Shown: one piece after another, positions 16,755 to 23,950 of the stretch
Layout: each line of letters opens with the position of its first letter
Numbering within the stretch: the stretch's first letter is position 1
NCBI RefSeq assembly: GCF_039655865.1
Contig: NZ_JBBYXL010000002.1
Location: 62,001 to 126,000, forward strand
Length of the DNA: 64,000 bases
Reading direction: 5' to 3'
Source: Prosthecobacter sp. SYSU 5D2
Lineage (GTDB): Bacteria; Verrucomicrobiota; Verrucomicrobiia; Verrucomicrobiales; Verrucomicrobiaceae
Program-made: the position numbers and the translations under genes
The notes under the pieces: generated by a model
Databases searched by the model: none
The model's input: the letters and a program-made list of their open reading frames with translations, nothing else
What the model was told of the DNA's origin: nothing

Positions 16755-18338
16755 TCACTTCACCCGCTCCCAGTCCAGCCCAAATCGCGCCAGGTACTTC
16801 TTCAGCCTGTCTGCATCGTTGGCCTTCGCTTTGCTGGCGCGTGAAACAGCAAAGAGCTTCCGTCCCGCATCCGACAGCGTTTTGCTCTCCCGGCAGATGC
16901 CGAGAACGTAATCAAGCTGCACCAGATCAAAGGGGTCCAGCTTCGACCGCTCTTCCTCACTGAGCACCGTGCACTGTGCACTGGCTTCCCCAACCCTCCA
17001 GCTCTCCATCAGCCGCGATTTCTCCTGCTCCACACATTCCACCGTGATGCGGCCCTTCGGCGCCAGCGTGGCCATGCGGGTAACGGCGGCATTCAGGTCG
17101 CGGAAGTTGGCACTCCATTTTGCCTCCGGGCTTCGCGCGAATTTCAGGAAGGCCTCGCGGGCCTCTTTGTTAAAGCGCACCTGACGGCGGTGGGATTTGG
17201 CAAAGCGTTCCAGTTCGAAGTCAAGATTTGCGCTGAGGTCCTCCCGCCGCTCTGCCAGGCTGGGCAGGGTGAAGGTCCACAAGTTAATTCGTGCCAGCAA
17301 GTCATCACGAAATTTGCCAGCCGCCACCTCGGCACGCAGGTCTCGGTTGGTCCCGGCGATGAGCTGGAAGTCGCTGGAGACCGCCTTGTCGGAGCCGAGC
17401 GGGAGAAAGGTTTTGTCCTCCAGCGCGCGCAGCAGCATGGCCTGTTCATCCAGGCCCAGCTCGCCGATCTCATCCAGAAAGATGAGCCCTTTATCTGCCT
17501 CCTTCAGCAGCCCTGGCCGGTCCGCCTGCGCACCGGTGAAAGCTCCACGCCGATGGCCAAAGAGCGCGCTCATGGCCTGGTCACCTCGTAACGTGGCGCA
17601 GTTCACTTCAACAAACCTTCCGGTTAGGCCAGCTCGTGTGCGGCGCAGGTCATAGATGCGCGAGGTCAGCAGGGACTTGCCCGCACCTGTCGGCCCCATA
17701 ATGAGCATTGGAGCTTTTGAGTTCACCGCCACCAGTTCGATCTGGCTGATGAGCTTGTTAAACGCATTGCTCTTCGTGGCGATGCCGCTCTTCAGGAAGT
17801 CCAGCGTCTTCTCCTGCTCCTGGGCAAAGCGCGTGGCCAGCCGGTCATACTTGGACAGGTCCAGATCAATGATCTCATAGCGCCCGCTAGCCTTGGTGTC
17901 GCGTCCATTGACGCGGGTGGGGGAAGTTTGCAGCAGCCGCGCCGGGATGAAATTGGCCTCGTTCAGCAGGAACCAGCAGATCTGCGCCACATGCGTCCCC
18001 GTGGTCAGGTGAATGAGATAATCCTCTTTTTCTGATTTAAACGCATACTTGGTTATGAAGTCATACAGTCCCTCATACACAATCTGAAAATCCCAAGGGT
18101 CCGCAAAGCAGATTTCATTCACCACCACCGTCGTCTCTGGCGAGATCAGGCCAATGTCCGCCACCACCTGCTGCGCCAAGTCCATGAACTTCGGCTCCAC
18201 CAGCAGCTCCAGCCGAGAAATCAGCAAATCTTCTTGCTGGCACATGGACACCGTCGGTCGCCACCGCGACCACCTATCCACCCCCTGCGCCCGGTCCAAC
18301 GAGGTGCCTAAAAAGCCAAAAACGACGGTGGATTTCAT
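16755..18338 (-). CDS. rtcR: RtcR, sigma-54-dependent activator of the RNA-repair operon
   Basis: 527 residues, full length. The N-terminus KSTVVFGFLGTSLD and the EKEDYLIHLTTGTHVAQICWF block match the RtcR ligand-sensing (CARF-type) domain. Residues about 185-430 are an AAA+ domain with Walker A GPTGAGKS, the sigma-54-contacting loop GAFTGA, Walker B LIFLDEIGE and GTNRDLR. The C-terminus carries a DNA-binding helical region ending RLKKYLARFGL. In enterobacteria RtcR is switched on by RNA fragments with 2',3'-cyclic phosphate ends and drives rtcBA through sigma-54. The divergent sigma-54 promoter at 19105 is its expected target. The start codon overlaps the toxin stop (ATGA, 18335-18338), so translation is probably coupled to the toxin-antitoxin genes. 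Confidence 0.95.
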   Translation of the reverse strand: MKSTVVFGFLGTSLDRAQGVDRWSRWRPTVSMCQQEDLLISRLELLVEPKFMDLAQQVVADIGLISPETTVVVNEICFADPWDFQIVYEGLYDFITKYAFKSEKEDYLIHLTTGTHVAQICWFLLNEANFIPARLLQTSPTRVNGRDTKASGRYEIIDLDLSKYDRLATRFAQEQEKTLDFLKSGIATKSNAFNKLISQIELVAVNSKAPMLIMGPTGAGKSLLTSRIYDLRRTRAGLTGRFVEVNCATLRGDQAMSALFGHRRGAFTGAQADRPGLLKEADKGLIFLDEIGELGLDEQAMLLRALEDKTFLPLGSDKAVSSDFQLIAGTNRDLRAEVAAGKFRDDLLARINLWTFTLPSLAERREDLSANLDFELERFAKSHRRQVRFNKEAREAFLKFARSPEAKWSANFRDLNAAVTRMATLAPKGRITVECVEQEKSRLMESWRVGEASAQCTVLSEEERSKLDPFDLVQLDYVLGICRESKTLSDAGRKLFAVSRASKAKANDADRLKKYLARFGLDWERVK

Positions 18339-18643
18339 GGCAGTTCATTCAGCCTGCGTTTGATCATCTCAGGCGCCTGTCGCAGATCCAGCAGGGCATG
18401 CAGCACGACTCCTCGCGACTCAGACACATAGAACAATCCATAGTTCCTGTTATAAACCAATACCCTTCTTAATCTGCGATGTTCCAGGCCAGGGCCAAGC
18501 AAAGGGAACCGTTGAAGCAGCCGGACAGTTTTCAGAATTTCGTCATAAAACAGGTCGCCCGCGCCATCCTCCCTCAATTCCAGACGTTCATAGATGGCCT
18601 GGACATCATTCTCAGCGGCCAGTGTCCAGACGAGATCATCCAT
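18335..18643 (-). CDS. ParE/RelE-superfamily toxin
   Basis: About 102 residues from ATG 18643 (MDDLVWTLAAENDVQ). A longer in-frame start would run through the antitoxin. It has the compact ParE/RelE fold pattern: an N-terminal helix pair with DVQAIYERLE, LLQRFPLLGPGLEHRRLRRVLV, a YNYGLFYV-type strand, and the ending VVLHALLDLRQAPEMIKRRL. I cannot tell from sequence whether it acts on DNA gyrase (ParE) or cuts mRNA (RelE). It overlaps the antitoxin stop by 8 bp and the rtcR start by 4 bp. Confidence 0.85.
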   Translation of the reverse strand: MDDLVWTLAAENDVQAIYERLELREDGAGDLFYDEILKTVRLLQRFPLLGPGLEHRRLRRVLVYNRNYGLFYVSESRGVVLHALLDLRQAPEMIKRRLNELP

Positions 18644-18881
18644 GATGGGAGGCGGTCGTTGAAAGACGCTGCTTGAGGGCCATGAGCCCGGCGGTGACTT
18701 CCTCAGTCGTCTTGACGGCGGAAGGGTCGGCCTCATGCGCATCCAGCCTCTGATCCAGAAAGGCCTTCAACTCAGGCGTGAAGTCCACGCTTTTGGAAAC
18801 CTCTTCCGCCAGCTCGCAAGAGAGCCGCATCTTCTGTTCCACCGTCAAATGGTGAAGCGCCGGAATGGTTTCGAGGATCAT
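18636..18881 (-). CDS. Antitoxin of the addiction-module-component type
   Basis: 81 residues, starting MILETIPALHHLTVEQKMRL. The short helical protein with an LTVEQKMRLSCELAEEV segment and an acidic, probably flexible C-half fits the unstable-antitoxin family paired with ParE/RelE toxins. A strong AGGAGG (complement of 18893-18898) sits 11 nt upstream of the ATG, much better than most start sites in this window. First gene of the antitoxin-toxin-rtcR unit. Confidence 0.8.
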   Translation of the reverse strand: MILETIPALHHLTVEQKMRLSCELAEEVSKSVDFTPELKAFLDQRLDAHEADPSAVKTTEEVTAGLMALKQRLSTTASHHG

Positions 18882-19104: not shown

Positions 19105-19120
19105 TGGCACGGTCCTGGCA
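19105..19120 (+). promoter_or_regulatory. Sigma-54 (-24/-12) promoter of the rsr-Y RNA-rtcBA operon
   Basis: TGGCACG-GTCC-TGGCA matches the -24/-12 consensus TGGCACG-N4-TTGCA with one mismatch, with GG (19106-19107) and GC (19118-19119) correctly spaced. Transcription would begin near 19131, which excludes the TTG at 19128 as start codon and supports ATG 19158 for rsr. A 7-bp inverted repeat GTGCCAA-aac-TTGGCAC (19094-19110) overlaps the -24 element. Confidence 0.85.
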
Positions 19121-19157
19121 TTACTGATTGGCACAACGTAACAACCCGAAAAACATC

Positions 19158-20726
19158 ATGGCCAGCAAAACACTCTTCCAATCCATCGCCGGAGCCCTCG
19201 CCCCCAAGGCGGATACTCGCAACGAAGCCGGTGGCCTGGCTTACCAGATGACCCCGCGTCATGCCCTGGCCCAGTACGCGGCCACCGGATGCCTGAACCA
19301 CACTTATTACGCCACCGCCGAGGACCAGCTTCAGAAGATCCTGGCTCTCTGCGATAAGGTGCCAACGGACTTCATCGCCCGGACTGCGCTTCACTGCCGT
19401 GAAAAAGGCTTTATGAAGGATGTGCCAGCGCTGCTTTGCGCCGTGCTTGCCGCCCGCGATGCCGAGCGTCTGGAGCTCATCTTTAGCCGCGTGATCAACG
19501 ATGCGAAGATTCTGCGCAACTTTGTCCAGATTCTGCGTTCCGGGGTGACCGGCCGTAAGTCCCTGGGATCGCTGCCGAAGCGTCTGGTGCGCAAGTGGTT
19601 TGAAAACCGTTCGGATGAAGCCGTGTTCCGTGCGGATGTGGGCCAGTCTCCTTCCGTGGCGGACATCATCAAGATGGTGCACCCGCATCCTGGGTCGCCG
19701 TCCCGTGAGGCGCTATATGGTTACCTCATTGGTCGCGCTCATCAGGCCGAGGCTCTGCCACCTCTGGTGCGCGAGTTTGAAGCCTGGAAGCTGGACCCGC
19801 AGGGTGAGCCTCCGGATGTGCCCTTCCAGATGCTCACGGCGCTGCCGCTGACCACGGAGCAATGGCTTGCCATCGCCCGCCGTGCCACCTGGCAGACCAC
19901 CCGGATGAACCTGAACACCTTTGCCCGTCATGGTGTGTTCACTCATCCCGAGGTGACCCGCCTCATCGCCAGCCGTCTGCGCAGCGAGGACCAGGTGCGT
20001 CGTGCCCGTGTCTTCCCTTACCAGCTCATGGCCGCCTATTTCAATGTGGGGGCCGATGTGCCGCATGAAGTGAAGGAAGCGCTGCAGGACGCCATGGAAA
20101 TCGCGGTTTCCAATGTGCCTGTCGTGAGCGGAAAAGTGGTCGTGGCACCTGACGTGTCCGGTTCCATGCACTCCCCGGTGACCGGCGTGCGCAAAGGGGC
20201 CACGAGCAAGATCCGCTGCATTGATGTGGCCGCCCTGGTGGCTGCCGCCTTCCTTCGCCAGAACCGTGATGCCGAGGTGCTTCCCTTTGAAACCAAGGTG
20301 GTTCCGGTGTCTTTGAATCCCCGTGATTCGGTGATGACGAATGCCCAAAAGCTGGCCTCGCTGCCCGCTGGCGGGACCAACTGCAGCGCCGTGCTCATTG
20401 ACCTCAATGCCCGCAAGGCGAAGGCCGATCTGGTCATCTATGTCTCCGATAATGAGTCCTGGATGGACACGCCAGCTCATGGCCGGTTTGGTGGATCTCC
20501 AACACGCACGATGAGCGAATGGAATGTGTTCAAGCAGCGCAATCCGAATGCCCGTCTGGTGTGCCTGGACATCCAGCCCTATGCGACGACGCAGGCGCAG
20601 GAACGCGAGGACATCCTGAACATCGGCGGTTTCTCCGACCAGGTGTTTCAAGTCATCGCCTCCTTTGCCAGCGGCCAGCTTGGCCCTGACCACTGGGTAG
20701 GCGAGATCGAAAACACACCCCTTTGA
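19158..20726 (+). CDS. rsr: Rsr, bacterial Ro60 (TROVE plus vWA domain protein)
   Basis: 522 residues from ATG 19158. The start follows from the promoter position. Residues 1-330 are the TROVE HEAT-repeat ring (AYQMTPRHALAQYAATGCLNHTYYA near the start; GYLIGRAHQAEALPPLVREFEAW). The C-terminal third is a von Willebrand A-like domain with a complete MIDAS DVSGSMHS. Ro60 proteins bind misfolded RNA ends in the ring and Y RNA on its outside, and can link to nucleases such as PNPase. It is the first gene of the sigma-54 operon and is followed after 7 nt by the first Y-RNA-like element, whose outer stem includes the rsr stop codon. Confidence 0.95.
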   Translation: MASKTLFQSIAGALAPKADTRNEAGGLAYQMTPRHALAQYAATGCLNHTYYATAEDQLQKILALCDKVPTDFIARTALHCREKGFMKDVPALLCAVLAARDAERLELIFSRVINDAKILRNFVQILRSGVTGRKSLGSLPKRLVRKWFENRSDEAVFRADVGQSPSVADIIKMVHPHPGSPSREALYGYLIGRAHQAEALPPLVREFEAWKLDPQGEPPDVPFQMLTALPLTTEQWLAIARRATWQTTRMNLNTFARHGVFTHPEVTRLIASRLRSEDQVRRARVFPYQLMAAYFNVGADVPHEVKEALQDAMEIAVSNVPVVSGKVVVAPDVSGSMHSPVTGVRKGATSKIRCIDVAALVAAAFLRQNRDAEVLPFETKVVPVSLNPRDSVMTNAQKLASLPAGGTNCSAVLIDLNARKAKADLVIYVSDNESWMDTPAHGRFGGSPTRTMSEWNVFKQRNPNARLVCLDIQPYATTQAQEREDILNIGGFSDQVFQVIASFASGQLGPDHWVGEIENTPL

Positions 20727-20733
20727 AGACCTT

Positions 20734-20806
20734 GGAGGCTGGTGAATGCCTGAGATGACTACATTTTTGCGAAAAAACGTCGCTCGACCTCTTGTCACCA
20801 GCCTCC
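20734..20806 (+). ncRNA. Y-RNA-like RNA 1 (minimal, no large effector module)
   Basis: 73 nt. The closing helix GGAGGCTGGTGA (20734-20745) pairs perfectly with TCACCAGCCTCC (20795-20806). It carries the conserved 5' block AATGCC and 3' block CTTG as an internal loop. A second helix is formed by GAG..GAC (20752-20759) and GTC.CTC (20779-20785), and the top is only a TTTTT-gcg-AAAAA hairpin. An outer helix TTTGAAGA (20722-20729) with TCTTCAAA (20807-20814) extends the stem across the rsr stop codon (20724-20726). It could be a free Ro60-binding RNA, or a 3'-end structure of rsr mRNA from which the RNA is cut. Confidence 0.75.
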
Positions 20807-20830: not shown

Positions 20831-20961
20831 TTGGCGAATGCCCTGAGGAACTACATTGAATCTGACGGTTGCAGGTTCAAATCCTGCCAGTCCCATTCAC
20901 GGGGGATTGTAGCTCAAGCAGGTAGAGCATCAGCATTGTTTCTCGACTCCTTTGTCGCCAA
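20831..20961 (+). ncRNA. Y-RNA-like RNA 2 with permuted tRNA-like module
   Basis: 131 nt. The closing helix is TTGGCGA/TCGCCAA and the internal-loop blocks are AATGCC and TTTG. The second helix is GAGGAAC (20845-20851) with GTTTCTC (20938-20944). On top, in order: a T arm (GCAGG-TTCAAAT-CCTGC, 20870-20886), the 3' acceptor strand CAGTCCC, a short linker, the 5' acceptor strand GGGATTG (7 pairs, one G-U), TA as positions 8-9, and a D arm GCTC..GG..GAGC. The variable loop is CGGTT and a short TCAG/CTGA helix stands where the anticodon stem would be. This is the layout of YrlA, whose tRNA-like domain stands on the Y stem. Confidence 0.88.
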
Positions 20962-20988: not shown

Positions 20989-21090
20989 TGGCGAATGCCG
21001 GAGCTGACTACATCACCAAATAGTGGGCATGATAACCCACACCTGTCTTAGTAACAGGCATTCATCATGTCTCTCCACCCCTTGTCGCCA
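20989..21090 (+). ncRNA. Y-RNA-like RNA 3 with double-hairpin module
   Basis: 102 nt. The closing helix is TGGCGA/TCGCCA, with AATGCC and CCCCTTG blocks. The second helix is GAG..GAC (21001-21008) with GTC.CTC (21069-21075). The top holds two hairpins: GTGGG-catgataa-CCCAC (21023-21040) and CCTGT-cttagta-ACAGG (21042-21058). It has no tRNA-like arms. The loop sequence GATAACCC is shared with RNA 4. Confidence 0.8.
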
Positions 21091-21115: not shown

Positions 21116-21214
21116 CTGGCGAATGCCCAGAGTGACTACATCCCAAAACATGGCGGCTTGATAACCCGTACCCCTGAAGACCTCAGGGACTGTCACTCAC
21201 CCCCTTGTCGCCAG
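21116..21214 (+). ncRNA. Y-RNA-like RNA 4 with hairpin module
   Basis: 99 nt. The closing helix is CTGGCGA/TCGCCAG, with AATGCC and CCCCTTG blocks. The second helix GAGTGAC (21130-21136) pairs perfectly with GTCACTC (21192-21198). The top has a GATAACCC-containing segment similar to RNA 3 and a stable hairpin CCCTGA-agacc-TCAGGG (21172-21188). No tRNA-like arms. Confidence 0.8.
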
Positions 21215-21242
21215 CCTTCATTTTAAACCAACCTTTCTAAAC

Positions 21243-21380
21243 GGGGCGAATGCCCGATGGAACTACACGATTAGCAAATCCTCCTGTCGTGGGTTCGAAT
21301 CCCACCGGTCCCACTTTCGACGGGACCGTAGCTCAGTCTGGTAGAGCAGAGCCAACGTTTCATCAAAACCTTGTCGCCCC
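21243..21380 (+). ncRNA. Y-RNA-like RNA 5 with permuted tRNA-like module
   Basis: 138 nt. The closing helix is GGGGCGA/TCGCCCC, with AATGCC and CCTTG blocks. The second helix GATGGAAC (21256-21263) pairs with GTTTCATC (21357-21364). The tRNA mimic is near canonical: T arm GTGGG-TTCGAAT-CCCAC, 3' acceptor strand CGGTCCC, 9-nt linker ACTTTCGAC, 5' acceptor strand GGGACCG (7 perfect pairs), TA, and D arm GCTC-AGTCTGGTA-GAGC with GG. The T loop (TTCGAAT) and D loop suggest it would be a substrate for TruB and dihydrouridine synthase, as shown for Salmonella YrlA. It ends 19 bp before the rtcB start codon. Confidence 0.9.
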
Positions 21381-21399
21381 ACCTTTTTCTCACACTCAT

Positions 21400-22887
21400 A
21401 TGACCTCCCCTTTCCACATCATCAACGAAGCCGAAGCCTTTCTCCCTGCCCGCGATAACAAGGGTAAGCCGATCACCGTGATCGGAACCGAGGCCATCCG
21501 AAATGGCTTTGACCAGACCTGCATTGAGCAGGCGCTGAATTCGCGTTCCGCGCCGGGGGTGACGGACCTGGTGCTGAACCCGGATGCCCATGCCGGATAC
21601 GGCGCGCCTGTGGGGTGTGTGATGGCCTCGCCAACGCACATTTATCCAGGGCCGGTGGGGGTGGACATCAAGTGCTCCATGTCCCTGCTGCAAATGAACA
21701 TCCCGTCGGATGAGATCGTGGATCGCACGGTGCGCCGTCGTCTCATTGAGGCCATCGTAGCTCGCACACCGACGGGTCCAGGCCGAGGTCAGCGCGAGGC
21801 CAAAAAGTCCCGCCGTGTGTCTGCGGCCCTGGGAGTGCAAGCCTGCACCGAAGGGGCCAGCAAAGCCGTTTGCGAAGCGCTGGGGATTCCGCCAGAGTGG
21901 GCGTTGCGCTGCGAGGACAGCCAGCACTACGGGCATGATGGGAACGTTTCCACGCTGCATGAGCGGCTGGATAAAATGCGCGCCTTCAATGCCTTCCCCA
22001 ACTTTGAAAACAAGATGATGCAGCTCGGTTCTTACGGAGGTGGAAACCACTTCGGTGAGTGCGAGGTGGTGCAGCTTGATTCCGACCCGACGATGCGTGC
22101 CACGGCGGAAGTCTTTGGCCTGCAGGATGACCGCGTGGCCTTCCTGAGCCACTGCGGATCGCGCGGGTTTGGGAACATCCTGGCGCAACGCCAGTTCAAG
22201 GCGCTGGAAGGTTTCTTCCGCACCTGGGGACTGGATTTCCCTGCCGGTGACAAGCAGCTCGTTTATGCGCCGCTCGGTACACCGGAGGCGGACGCCTATC
22301 TGGATGACATGGCCCTGGGGGCCAACTTCGCGACCGTAAACCACATGCTCATCAATGCCCTGGTGCTGGAGGCTTTCCAAGAAGTCCTGCCAGGGACAAC
22401 CGGGCAATTGGTGTACTTCATCAGCCACAACATCGCGCGTCAGGAGGTGGTGGATAACCAGCTCTCCTGGGTGCACCGCAAAGGGGCCACCCGTGCCTTC
22501 CCTGGGGGCCATCATGCACTGAAGGACACACCGTTTGCCGCCACCGGTCACCCGATCCTGCTGCCCGGAAATCCGCGCGATGGCTCCGTCGTGATGGTGG
22601 CCAAACCGGAGGCCGTGAAAAGCTGCTACAGCGTGAACCACGGTGCCGGCCGCTGCATGGGCCGCAAAGCTGCCGCCCGCGCGCTGGACCAAAAAACCGT
22701 GGACGCCGACTTCGAGTCTAACGACATCCTCTTCAACTCCCGCCAGTATCCGATTGATGAAGCCCCGAACGCCTACAAGGATTTCAAAGAAGTCCTCCGC
22801 AGCGTCGAGTCCGCCGGTCTCGCCCAGCAAGTGTGCAAGCTGAAGGCCCGCTTCGTGATCAAGGATGCAGCGGAGGCGGATGATTGA
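21400..22887 (+). CDS. rtcB: RtcB, RNA-splicing ligase
   Basis: 495 residues from ATG 21400. The open frame extends upstream to 21250, but that part is the Y-RNA-like element, not protein. RtcB joins 2',3'-cyclic-phosphate or 3'-phosphate ends to 5'-OH ends using GTP and Mn2+. Visible motifs: NPDAHAGYGAP, GVDIKCSMSL (metal cysteine), GGNHFGE, SHCGSRGFG, SHNIARQE, HRKGATRAFPGGH, GSVVMVA, and the guanylylated histidine in VNHGAGRCMGRK. The metal loop reads DIKCS rather than the common DIGCG, and the protein is longer than E. coli RtcB (about 408), so it belongs to a different RtcB clade. Third protein of the sigma-54 operon. Confidence 0.95.
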   Translation: MTSPFHIINEAEAFLPARDNKGKPITVIGTEAIRNGFDQTCIEQALNSRSAPGVTDLVLNPDAHAGYGAPVGCVMASPTHIYPGPVGVDIKCSMSLLQMNIPSDEIVDRTVRRRLIEAIVARTPTGPGRGQREAKKSRRVSAALGVQACTEGASKAVCEALGIPPEWALRCEDSQHYGHDGNVSTLHERLDKMRAFNAFPNFENKMMQLGSYGGGNHFGECEVVQLDSDPTMRATAEVFGLQDDRVAFLSHCGSRGFGNILAQRQFKALEGFFRTWGLDFPAGDKQLVYAPLGTPEADAYLDDMALGANFATVNHMLINALVLEAFQEVLPGTTGQLVYFISHNIARQEVVDNQLSWVHRKGATRAFPGGHHALKDTPFAATGHPILLPGNPRDGSVVMVAKPEAVKSCYSVNHGAGRCMGRKAAARALDQKTVDADFESNDILFNSRQYPIDEAPNAYKDFKEVLRSVESAGLAQQVCKLKARFVIKDAAEADD

Positions 22888-22915: not shown

Positions 22916-23950
22916 ATGCAAACCTCCCCCCTCCTCCAAATCTCCGGCGAATCCGGCGGTGGCCAGTTGCTGCGTTCGGCGCTGGCTTTGTCCATGGTCA
23001 CGGGGACGCCATTCCGCATGGTGAACATCCGGGGCAAGCGCCCGAAGCCGGGCCTCATGAGGCAGCACCTGACTTGCGTGAAGGCGGCGGCGGAGATCTG
23101 CGAGGCGGCGGTGGATGGGGCTGCACTGGGATCCGTGGAGCTGGTCTTTGCGCCGGGCAAGGTGAGGGCAGGGGACTATGCCTTCAGCATTGGCAGCGGC
23201 GGCAGCACGACGCTGGTTTTCCAGACACTGCTGCCTGCGCTTCTTTATGCCGCTGGAGACAGCATGCTGCGCATCGAAGGCGGGACGCATAATCCCTTGG
23301 CACCGCCGTTTGAATTCATCGCGCAATGTTTTCTGCCGCAGCTTCACGGGCTGGGAGTGAAGGCAAGTGTGGCTTTGGAAAAGCATGGATTCATGCAGGC
23401 AGGAGGCGGCGTGCTGACGGCGTCGGTTTCGCCCATCAAGAAATGGAAGAAGCTGAAACTGATGGAGCGCGGGGAGCTGCAAGAAACCTTTGGTCGCGTG
23501 CTGCATGCCCACCTGCACCGGGAGATCGCCGAGCGTGAGATCGCCACGGCGGCGCGCGTGCTGGAATGGGAGGCGGACCGGATTGCCCTGCGCTACGCCA
23601 ATGACAGCACCGGGCCGGGCAATGCCCTGCTGCTGGGCGCGTGCTTTGCCAATGTGTGCGAGATCAGCAGCGGCATCGCCCAGATGGGAAAATCGGCGGA
23701 ATCCGTGGCCACCGGGGCGGCGAAAGGACTGAAATCCTATCTCGCATCGTCCGCTCCCGTGGGCGTGCATCTGGCGGACCAGCTCCTGCTGCCGATGTCG
23801 CTGGCGGGCGGTGGCCAATATCTCACCCGGCCGCTCAGCGACCACACGCGGACGAACATCGAACTGATTGAAAAATTCCTGCCGGTGAGGTTTCAGGTGG
23901 AGGATGAGACGGCGGGCGTGAAACGAGTGTCCGTGCACCCGGCATCCTAA
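22916..23950 (+). CDS. rtcA: RtcA, RNA 3'-terminal phosphate cyclase
   Basis: 344 residues. It converts RNA 3'-phosphate to 2',3'-cyclic phosphate with ATP, making ends that RtcB can use. Family motifs: ISGESGGGQLLRSALALSMVTG, RGKRPKPGLMRQHLTCVKAA, the IGSGGSTTLVFQTLLPALL block, GGTHNPLAPPFEF, and near the C-terminus SDHTRTNIELIEKFL containing the histidine expected to be adenylylated. It starts 28 nt after rtcB and is probably the last gene of the RNA-repair operon; a candidate new promoter lies just after it. Confidence 0.95.
   Translation: MQTSPLLQISGESGGGQLLRSALALSMVTGTPFRMVNIRGKRPKPGLMRQHLTCVKAAAEICEAAVDGAALGSVELVFAPGKVRAGDYAFSIGSGGSTTLVFQTLLPALLYAAGDSMLRIEGGTHNPLAPPFEFIAQCFLPQLHGLGVKASVALEKHGFMQAGGGVLTASVSPIKKWKKLKLMERGELQETFGRVLHAHLHREIAEREIATAARVLEWEADRIALRYANDSTGPGNALLLGACFANVCEISSGIAQMGKSAESVATGAAKGLKSYLASSAPVGVHLADQLLLPMSLAGGGQYLTRPLSDHTRTNIELIEKFLPVRFQVEDETAGVKRVSVHPAS

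Follow-up and report, generated by a model that had tools for sequence, protein, structure and literature searches.

The 64,000-nucleotide stretch of the Prosthecobacter sp. SYSU 5D2 genome analysed here (the window) contains, between a Ro60 gene and genes of RNA repair, an RNA in which the parts of a tRNA stand in permuted order. The question is whether this module of RNA 2 (20831-20961) is a true tRNA mimic within a Y RNA, and whether the hairpin that closes its acceptor helix is opened by the enzymes that process tRNA ends.

The YrlA RNA is described in a review (PMC8394870) as resembling the D, T and acceptor arms of tRNA, and as being modified by DusA and TruB to contain dihydrouridine and pseudouridine. 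Its basal stem binds Ro60 and its tRNA-like domain binds PNPase, forming a Ro60-PNPase tether, and a crystal structure (6CU1) is cited in the same source. Both the mimicry and tests of modification by TruB and Dus enzymes have therefore already been published for the family. The corresponding Salmonella operon is rsr-yrlBA-rtcBA, with the activator RtcR (PMC7790460).

Gene neighbourhood of the Y RNAs

Five Y RNAs, two of them with the tRNA-like module, form an array in this known setting of Ro60 and RNA repair. The features of the cluster are as follows.

16755-18338, - strand: RtcR sigma-54 activator (PF06956, E = 2.5e-79; PF00158)
19105-19120, + strand: possible sigma-54 promoter TGGCACGGTCCTGGCA, upstream of Ro60, one of four one-mismatch matches in the window
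19128-20726, + strand: Ro60 (Rsr) protein (PF25045 vWA_Ro60, E = 7.3e-19)
20735-20805, + strand: RNA 1, Y RNA without the tRNA-like module (Y motifs; folding z = -4.67)
20831-20961, + strand: RNA 2, YrlA-type Y RNA (Rfam RF02553, 60.7 bits, E = 2.8e-13, model positions 1-114)
20990-21089, + strand: RNA 3, Y RNA without the tRNA-like module (Y motifs, fold)
21117-21213, + strand: RNA 4, Y RNA without the tRNA-like module (Y motifs, fold)
21243-21379, + strand: RNA 5, second YrlA-type Y RNA with a permuted module (RF02553, 67 bits, E = 4.2e-15)
21400-22887, + strand: RtcB RNA ligase (PF01139, E = 2.7e-99)
22916-23950, + strand: RtcA RNA 3'-phosphate cyclase (PF01137, E = 2.7e-74)

The Ro60 frame, for which the ATG at 19158 is probably the better start, ends at 20726, 104 bases upstream of RNA 2, with RNA 1 in between; RNA 1 has no match to the YrlA model. 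The scan that yielded TGGCACGGTCCTGGCA used the sigma-54 consensus. Over the whole window it gave 37 matches against 47 by chance, and since this is not above chance the candidate promoter is suggestive by position only. Sigma-70 promoters and terminators sought around the Y RNA array were at or below chance.

The longest RtcB frame extends back through RNA 5 (21250-21399), giving a protein of 545 rather than 495 amino acids, and automatic annotation could in this way bury RNA 5 beneath a false RtcB N terminus. On the other side of the cluster, a gene for a ParE-like toxin (18335-18881, - strand, PF05016, E = 2.2e-7) overlaps the start of RtcR by four bases, and is preceded by an overlapping frame of 81 amino acids that looks antitoxin-like by eye.

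Anatomy of the permuted module

The limits of RNA 2, 20831 and 20961, are those of its Y stem (TTGGCGA/TCGCCAA). Its parts, in tRNA numbering where this applies, are these.

20832-20851, + strand: Y stem 5' strand, putatively Ro60-binding, GGCGAATGC and the start of GAACTAC; the helix is present in both free and constrained folds
20862-20865, + strand: CTGA, 3' strand of an anticodon-stem-like helix, pairing with 20930-20933
20866-20870, + strand: variable loop CGGTT, five nucleotides, with U48 at 20870 as the Levitt partner of A15
20871-20887, + strand: T arm, stem GCAGG/CCTGC and loop TTCAAAT
20888-20894, + strand: acceptor 3' strand CAGTCCC; all seven pairs vary on both sides in relatives
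20895-20902, + strand: linker ATTCACGG between the acceptor strands, without CCA
20903-20909, + strand: acceptor 5' strand GGGATTG, with covariation
20910-20911, + strand: TA, equivalents of U8 and A9; TA was required by the survey patterns
20912-20928, + strand: D arm GCTC-AAGCAGGTA-GAGC, with A14, A15 and GG at 20921-20922
20930-20933, + strand: TCAG, 5' strand of the anticodon-stem-like helix
20938-20960, + strand: Y stem 3' strand, GTTTCTCG ... TTGTCGCC (sequence, RF02553 match, fold)

The acceptor helix comprises seven pairs, one of them G-U. Position 26 is A20929, and the CTGA/TCAG helix (27-30/40-43, four base pairs) lies where the top of an anticodon stem would be. The earlier note had read here a T arm, acceptor 3' strand, linker, acceptor 5' strand, U8-A9 and a D arm with GG, in that order; all are present in the sequence, and the anatomy bears out its description of a permuted tRNA mimic in which the Y stem replaces the anticodon arm. 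RNA 5 is built in the same order, with its T arm at 21289-21305, acceptor strands at 21306-21312 and 21322-21328, linker ACTTTCGAC at 21313-21321 and D arm at 21331-21347. The tertiary pair A15-U48 of RNA 2 has the counterpart G15-C48 in RNA 5.

Membership of the YrlA family

The kinship to YrlA that the earlier note had proposed is supported by a full-length match of RNA 2 to RF02553, with E = 2.8e-13 for the searched stretch and 5.4e-13 genome-wide. RNA 2 carries both Ro60-binding stem motifs, GGCGAAUGC...GAACUAC and UUGUCGCC, and has its T arm, acceptor-like helix and D arm in the YrlA order. RNA 2 (60.7 bits) and RNA 5 (67 bits) fall just below the gathering score of 69 bits, a curator's threshold that is passed by a match in 8 of 68 genomes of the source's family, and the default scan of the window consequently lists neither. 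Annotation at the Rfam gathering cut-off would miss both YrlA-type RNAs (20831-20961 and 21243-21379).

Matches to the YrlA model in 14 control genomes are weak, and none reaches the level of RNA 2: they occur in seven genomes at E = 0.001, two at 1e-6, one at 1e-8 and none at 1e-10. Within the source's family, matches at 1e-6 or better are found in 23 of 68 genomes, eight of these 23 being a second type of Y RNA with a different stem. At 1e-10 the model matches in 9 of 121 genomes in the order of one relative and in 2 of 100 in that of another. RNA 2 thus belongs, with good support, to the YrlA family and lies in an operon of known type, and permuted tRNA mimicry is a known trait of that family, not a new one.

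Other origins were considered. For a two-piece tmRNA, the match to RF00023 at 21186-21316 scores 16.6 bits (E = 1.4e-4), below the gathering score of 47, and takes in RNA 5 on its T side without reaching RNA 2; ARAGORN found no tRNA and no tmRNA in the whole window. As a permuted tRNA gene RNA 2 would need an anticodon arm, and it has the Y stem there instead. A recent copy of a single tRNA of the same genome was not supported by comparison with 37 distinct tRNAs (there are 48 RF00005 matches). The best T-half identity is 18/25 for RNA 2 and 21/25 for RNA 5 (with tRNA-Lys UUU), some identities being underestimated because the register is off by one or two bases for some tRNAs without an encoded CCA, and the D halves agree best with other tRNAs. 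A search for viral relatives gave one pattern match in viral contigs (L200), which lies inside a reading frame and was taken as chance.

Two tandem tRNA-Lys genes elsewhere in the genome (L003, 1501-1586, contig C3) score 34.1 bits against the YrlA model, because the end of one tRNA followed by the start of the next resembles the permuted module. Such junctions are a source of false positives and, as no more than a lead, a possible origin of the module.

The second type of Y RNA, likewise a permuted tRNA mimic, has the stem GGGGCAGTGAG...TTACTTCG...CACTTTTCTCCCC and occurs in eight genomes of the source's family (L018-L025, L257-L260); the stem pattern matched in six of them and was recognised by eye in the other two. 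All four of the wider stretches around such loci contain a run of five to nine tRNA genes for several amino acids. Three (L257-L259) encode a TROVE protein, accompanied in L257 by an RNA ligase and in L259 by RlaP; for L260, the single frame tested behind the Y RNA has no Pfam match. Second Y RNAs of a further kind are seen in alphaproteobacteria (L035, L038, L057, L060), where a T-type arm is followed by GCTC-TCTGGCA-C/TGAGC, with no TAGC and, by eye, no evident 7-bp acceptor; from their sequences these are perhaps mimics of the elbow only.

Conservation and covariation

A pattern scan of GTDB genomes, using the Y motifs and the T loop, found at least 116 stretches. Of at least 169 rows that match the pattern, 116 were kept, the other 53 (not made distinct) being dropped for having no TAGC within 90 bases downstream; six of the rows kept have TAGC but not TAGCNCA. 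Among the matches listed, 101 of the 116 loci (up to 8 kb) include a Ro60 homologue and 86 include RtcB.

The complete 7-bp acceptor helix had been put forward as the distinction of RNA 2. Instead, 7 bp is the commonest uninterrupted length in the family (39 of 116 rows among the matches listed), followed by 8 bp (22), 5 bp (15) and 6 bp (12), with at least 7 bp in 71 of 116.

For covariation we aligned 84 distinct modules, comprising 82 from the scan matches listed, unselected for acceptor pairing, together with the two of the window; 60 rows with no strict D arm were left out. In this alignment of listed matches, 94.7% of the acceptor-helix cells are paired, and each of the seven acceptor pairs changes on both sides. 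The T-arm helix is paired in 99.8% of cells in the same alignment of listed matches, two of its five pairs being fixed by the search pattern; these two pairs and the D stem are for that reason uninformative on conservation. Taken together, the three helices in the 84 modules have a covariation score of 0.526, against a shuffle mean of 0.135 and at most 0.110 when slid.

The core was assessed in 152 modules among the matches listed, leaving out those with fewer than five of the seven acceptor pairs. Pair 15-48 is G-C in 128 and A-U in 19, the remainder being A-A (2), A-C (1), G-G (1) and G-U (1). The association has a Fisher p of 8e-22, a value inflated by relatedness. The D-loop GG is present in 151 of the 152, and at least three pairs from position 27 accompany a five-nucleotide variable loop in 96 of 152, any other loop length from 2 to 8 giving at most 8 of 152. 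Covariation of the Levitt pair shows the tRNA-like core to be genuine, and together with that of the helices across the family it is evidence for a true tRNA core preserved in the permuted module.

Predicted folding

Nearest-neighbour calculations, which have no tertiary terms, place the tRNA-like fold of RNA 2 2.3 kcal/mol above the minimum (3.1 kcal/mol with the 27-30 helix). In the predicted minimum TTGAATCTG pairs with CAGGTTCAA, forming a non-tRNA hairpin over the region of the T arm. Pairing probabilities are 0.97-1.00 for the acceptor, 0.05 for the T stem, 0.09 for the D stem and 0.01 for the 27-30 helix. The tRNA-like fold of RNA 5 lies 1.3 kcal/mol above its minimum. Folding z-scores are -1.6 for RNA 2 and -2.0 for RNA 5, with 15 and 6 of 200 shuffles, respectively, as stable.

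The energies and the low T-stem probability would fit a module whose tRNA look is due to chance or to the decay of a tRNA gene, with the energetically preferred hairpin as the functional fold. We regard this as very improbable: the acceptor pairs and pair 15-48 covary across the family, RNA 2 and RNA 5 use different 15-48 pairs, and neither tertiary contacts nor modification enter the energy model.

The linker and the question of processing

The earlier note had suggested that RNase P or RNase Z may cut the linker. RNase P would act before G1, and RNase Z or exonucleases behind position 73 or 76, leaving a tRNA-like Y RNA in two pieces joined by its acceptor helix, like a two-piece tmRNA. RNase P recognises stacked T and acceptor arms; its L15 pairs with RCCA, U(-1) is optimal, and AU, AA and AC are all named as optimal leader ends (PMC9433436). 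Permuted tmRNAs function in two parts, and in algae permuted pre-tRNAs lose their intervening sequence, possibly via RNase P and tRNase Z (PMC3978253).

In the linker of RNA 2, ATTCACGG, A73 is followed by TTC and not CCA (ATTC for RCCA), and the end is GG with no U(-1); the RCCA and U(-1) contacts sought there, which RNase P prefers and does not strictly need, are absent. The linker of RNA 5 matches only at A73-C74 (ACTT) and ends in AC. These sequences speak against processing. For RNA 2 the missing RCCA and the GG end count only mildly, because RCCA is not strictly needed and its deletion raised kcat/Km for RNase P 3.8- and 7.9-fold, while GG leaders are slow through pairing with RCCA (PMC9433436), which RNA 2 does not have. 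The linker of RNA 2 gives no positive reason to expect cleavage by RNase P or RNase Z; we consider such a cut distinctly unlikely for this RNA, and the idea is better placed in those relatives whose linkers begin with N73-CCA.

Among the matches listed, N73-CCA begins 16 of 61 linkers of at least four nucleotides behind an unbroken 7-bp helix. For linkers of at least five nucleotides it is found in 18 of 72 in the scan sample, again among the matches listed (mean 1.6 and maximum 7 in 10,000 shuffles), and in 12 of 41 in a second sample from genome searches (shuffle mean 1.3, maximum 7), from which modules identical to the first had been removed and in which related genomes remain. At the next linker offset CCA occurs three times in the scan sample, among the matches listed, and four times in the second. 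A purine is at position 73 in 55 of 72 (among the matches listed) and 35 of 41. Pooled, with linkers of at least six nucleotides, 28 of 110 distinct modules among the matches listed have N73-CCA, with 17 acceptor sequences and linkers of 6 to 40 nucleotides. Modules with fewer than six of seven acceptor pairs are left out of the counts 18/72, 12/41 and 28/110.

The excess of N73-CCA over shuffles in both samples favours processing. The leader ends can be read in two ways, with p-values that overstate because the counted sequences are related: among the matches listed, A(-2)U(-1) ends 12 of 28 N-CCA linkers and 12 of 82 others (Fisher p = 0.003), which points the same way, whereas AU, AA and AC ends pooled, at 16 of 28 and 34 of 82, do not differ (p = 0.19). 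Pairing of base -1 with 73 is possible in 13 of 28 N-CCA linkers and 39 of 82 others among the matches listed, and is thus no rarer in the former; an extension of the stem by such pairing acts as an anti-determinant for RNase P (PMC9433436). Loops of four nucleotides or fewer in 18 of 133 modules, and a hairpin longer by at least two pairs in 23 of 133 (among the matches listed), indicate that an intact hairpin is often kept. For Salmonella YrlA, one study states that fragments were not detected after DNA damage (PMC7790460).

N73-CCA linkers, about a quarter of the longer ones, are carried by L038, L051, L061, L083 (Mesorhizobium WSM4311), L129, L229 and others. Going by their names, most of the named carriers presumably belong to the Rhizobiales and Rhodobacterales; further carriers are in the source's own order and in a genome of the class of Comamonas. 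Among the matches listed, all 51 N-CCA rows, counted before removal of duplicates, carry the 5' Y motif, as the scan partly demanded, and 46 of the 51 the 3' motif; 16 of 18 N-CCA rows on a named scan stretch have a Ro60 homologue there. Within the source's order the linker sequences ACCATCGAC, ACCTTCGAC and ACTTTCGAC (RNA 5) suggest decay of the motif.

It is conceivable, if rather unlikely, that some of the Y RNAs linked to Ro60 are cryptic precursors of a permuted, tRNA-like kind. Their N73-CCA linker, often with the A(-2)U(-1) end that suits RNase P, would be cut, leaving an RNA in two pieces with a free tRNA-like CCA end, parallel to two-piece tmRNA; RNA 5, with ACTTTCGAC beside ACCTTCGAC and ACCATCGAC of its relatives, might then be a decayed descendant. 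The recurrence of N73-CCA in the acceptor loops of relatives makes end-processing of Y RNAs in the manner of tRNA testable, with named candidates. A search at the level of titles and abstract openings, with the primary YrlA papers lying outside it, found no earlier mention of CCA linkers or of 15-48 covariation.

Proposed role of RNA 2

Our preferred reading, to which we give a probability of roughly 0.8, is that RNA 2 is a YrlA-type Y RNA whose Y stem binds Ro60 and whose permuted tRNA-like module is the effector, tethering or gating Ro60 toward partners in decay or repair. We infer binding of Ro60 by the bipartite Y stem from the motif conserved in that stem and from the Ro60 gene close by. 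In the presumably expressed RNA the stacking of T and acceptor arms, contacts between the D and T loops and the Levitt pair would create a tRNA elbow on the module. This elbow may be recognised by tRNA-binding proteins (PNPase, TruB, Dus or others), and RNA 2 would thereby tether or gate Ro60 relative to partners in RNA decay or repair. RNA 2 probably remains intact, and the RNA-repair cluster is probably turned on by RtcR upon tRNA damage. The module is permuted because the Y stem enters at the place of the anticodon arm and a loop closes the acceptor strands.

The module might instead be a decoy or competitive inhibitor of an enzyme that cleaves or senses tRNA, such as an anticodon nuclease or the sensing domain of RtcR. 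Competitive inhibition of an anticodon nuclease is offered as a possibility in PMC7790460. RtcR as the target is our own addition, in keeping with the position of RNA 2 in an RtcR-RtcBA cluster. The mimic has no anticodon loop, which is where an anticodon nuclease cuts, and we think the decoy improbable beside the role of RNA 2 as a Ro60 tether or gate.

Comparison with known systems

Like RNA 2, the permuted tRNA genes known from red and green algae and from archaea place the 3' half before the 5' half, with an intervening sequence between the acceptor strands. RNA 2 differs in having no anticodon arm and no splicing motif noticeable by eye, and it cannot yield a decoding tRNA. Two-piece tmRNA also has a permuted tRNA-like domain with the 3' half encoded first (PMC3978253). 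Unlike it, RNA 2 has no tag-coding region, is putatively uncleaved, and has a Y stem and a Ro60 context.

The closest likeness is to YrlA itself, with which RNA 2 shares the Ro60-type stem motifs and the order of T arm, acceptor-like helix and D arm. The Rfam consensus has an acceptor-like helix of 6 bp with a short loop (two of its positions are not shown), where RNA 2 has 7 bp and a loop of eight nucleotides. Salmonella YrlA likewise belongs to an rtcBA operon with Ro60 (PMC7790460), as in the cluster of RNA 2. That operon is named rsr-yrlBA-rtcBA (PMC7790460), whereas the locus described here has five Y RNAs, two of which carry the permuted module.
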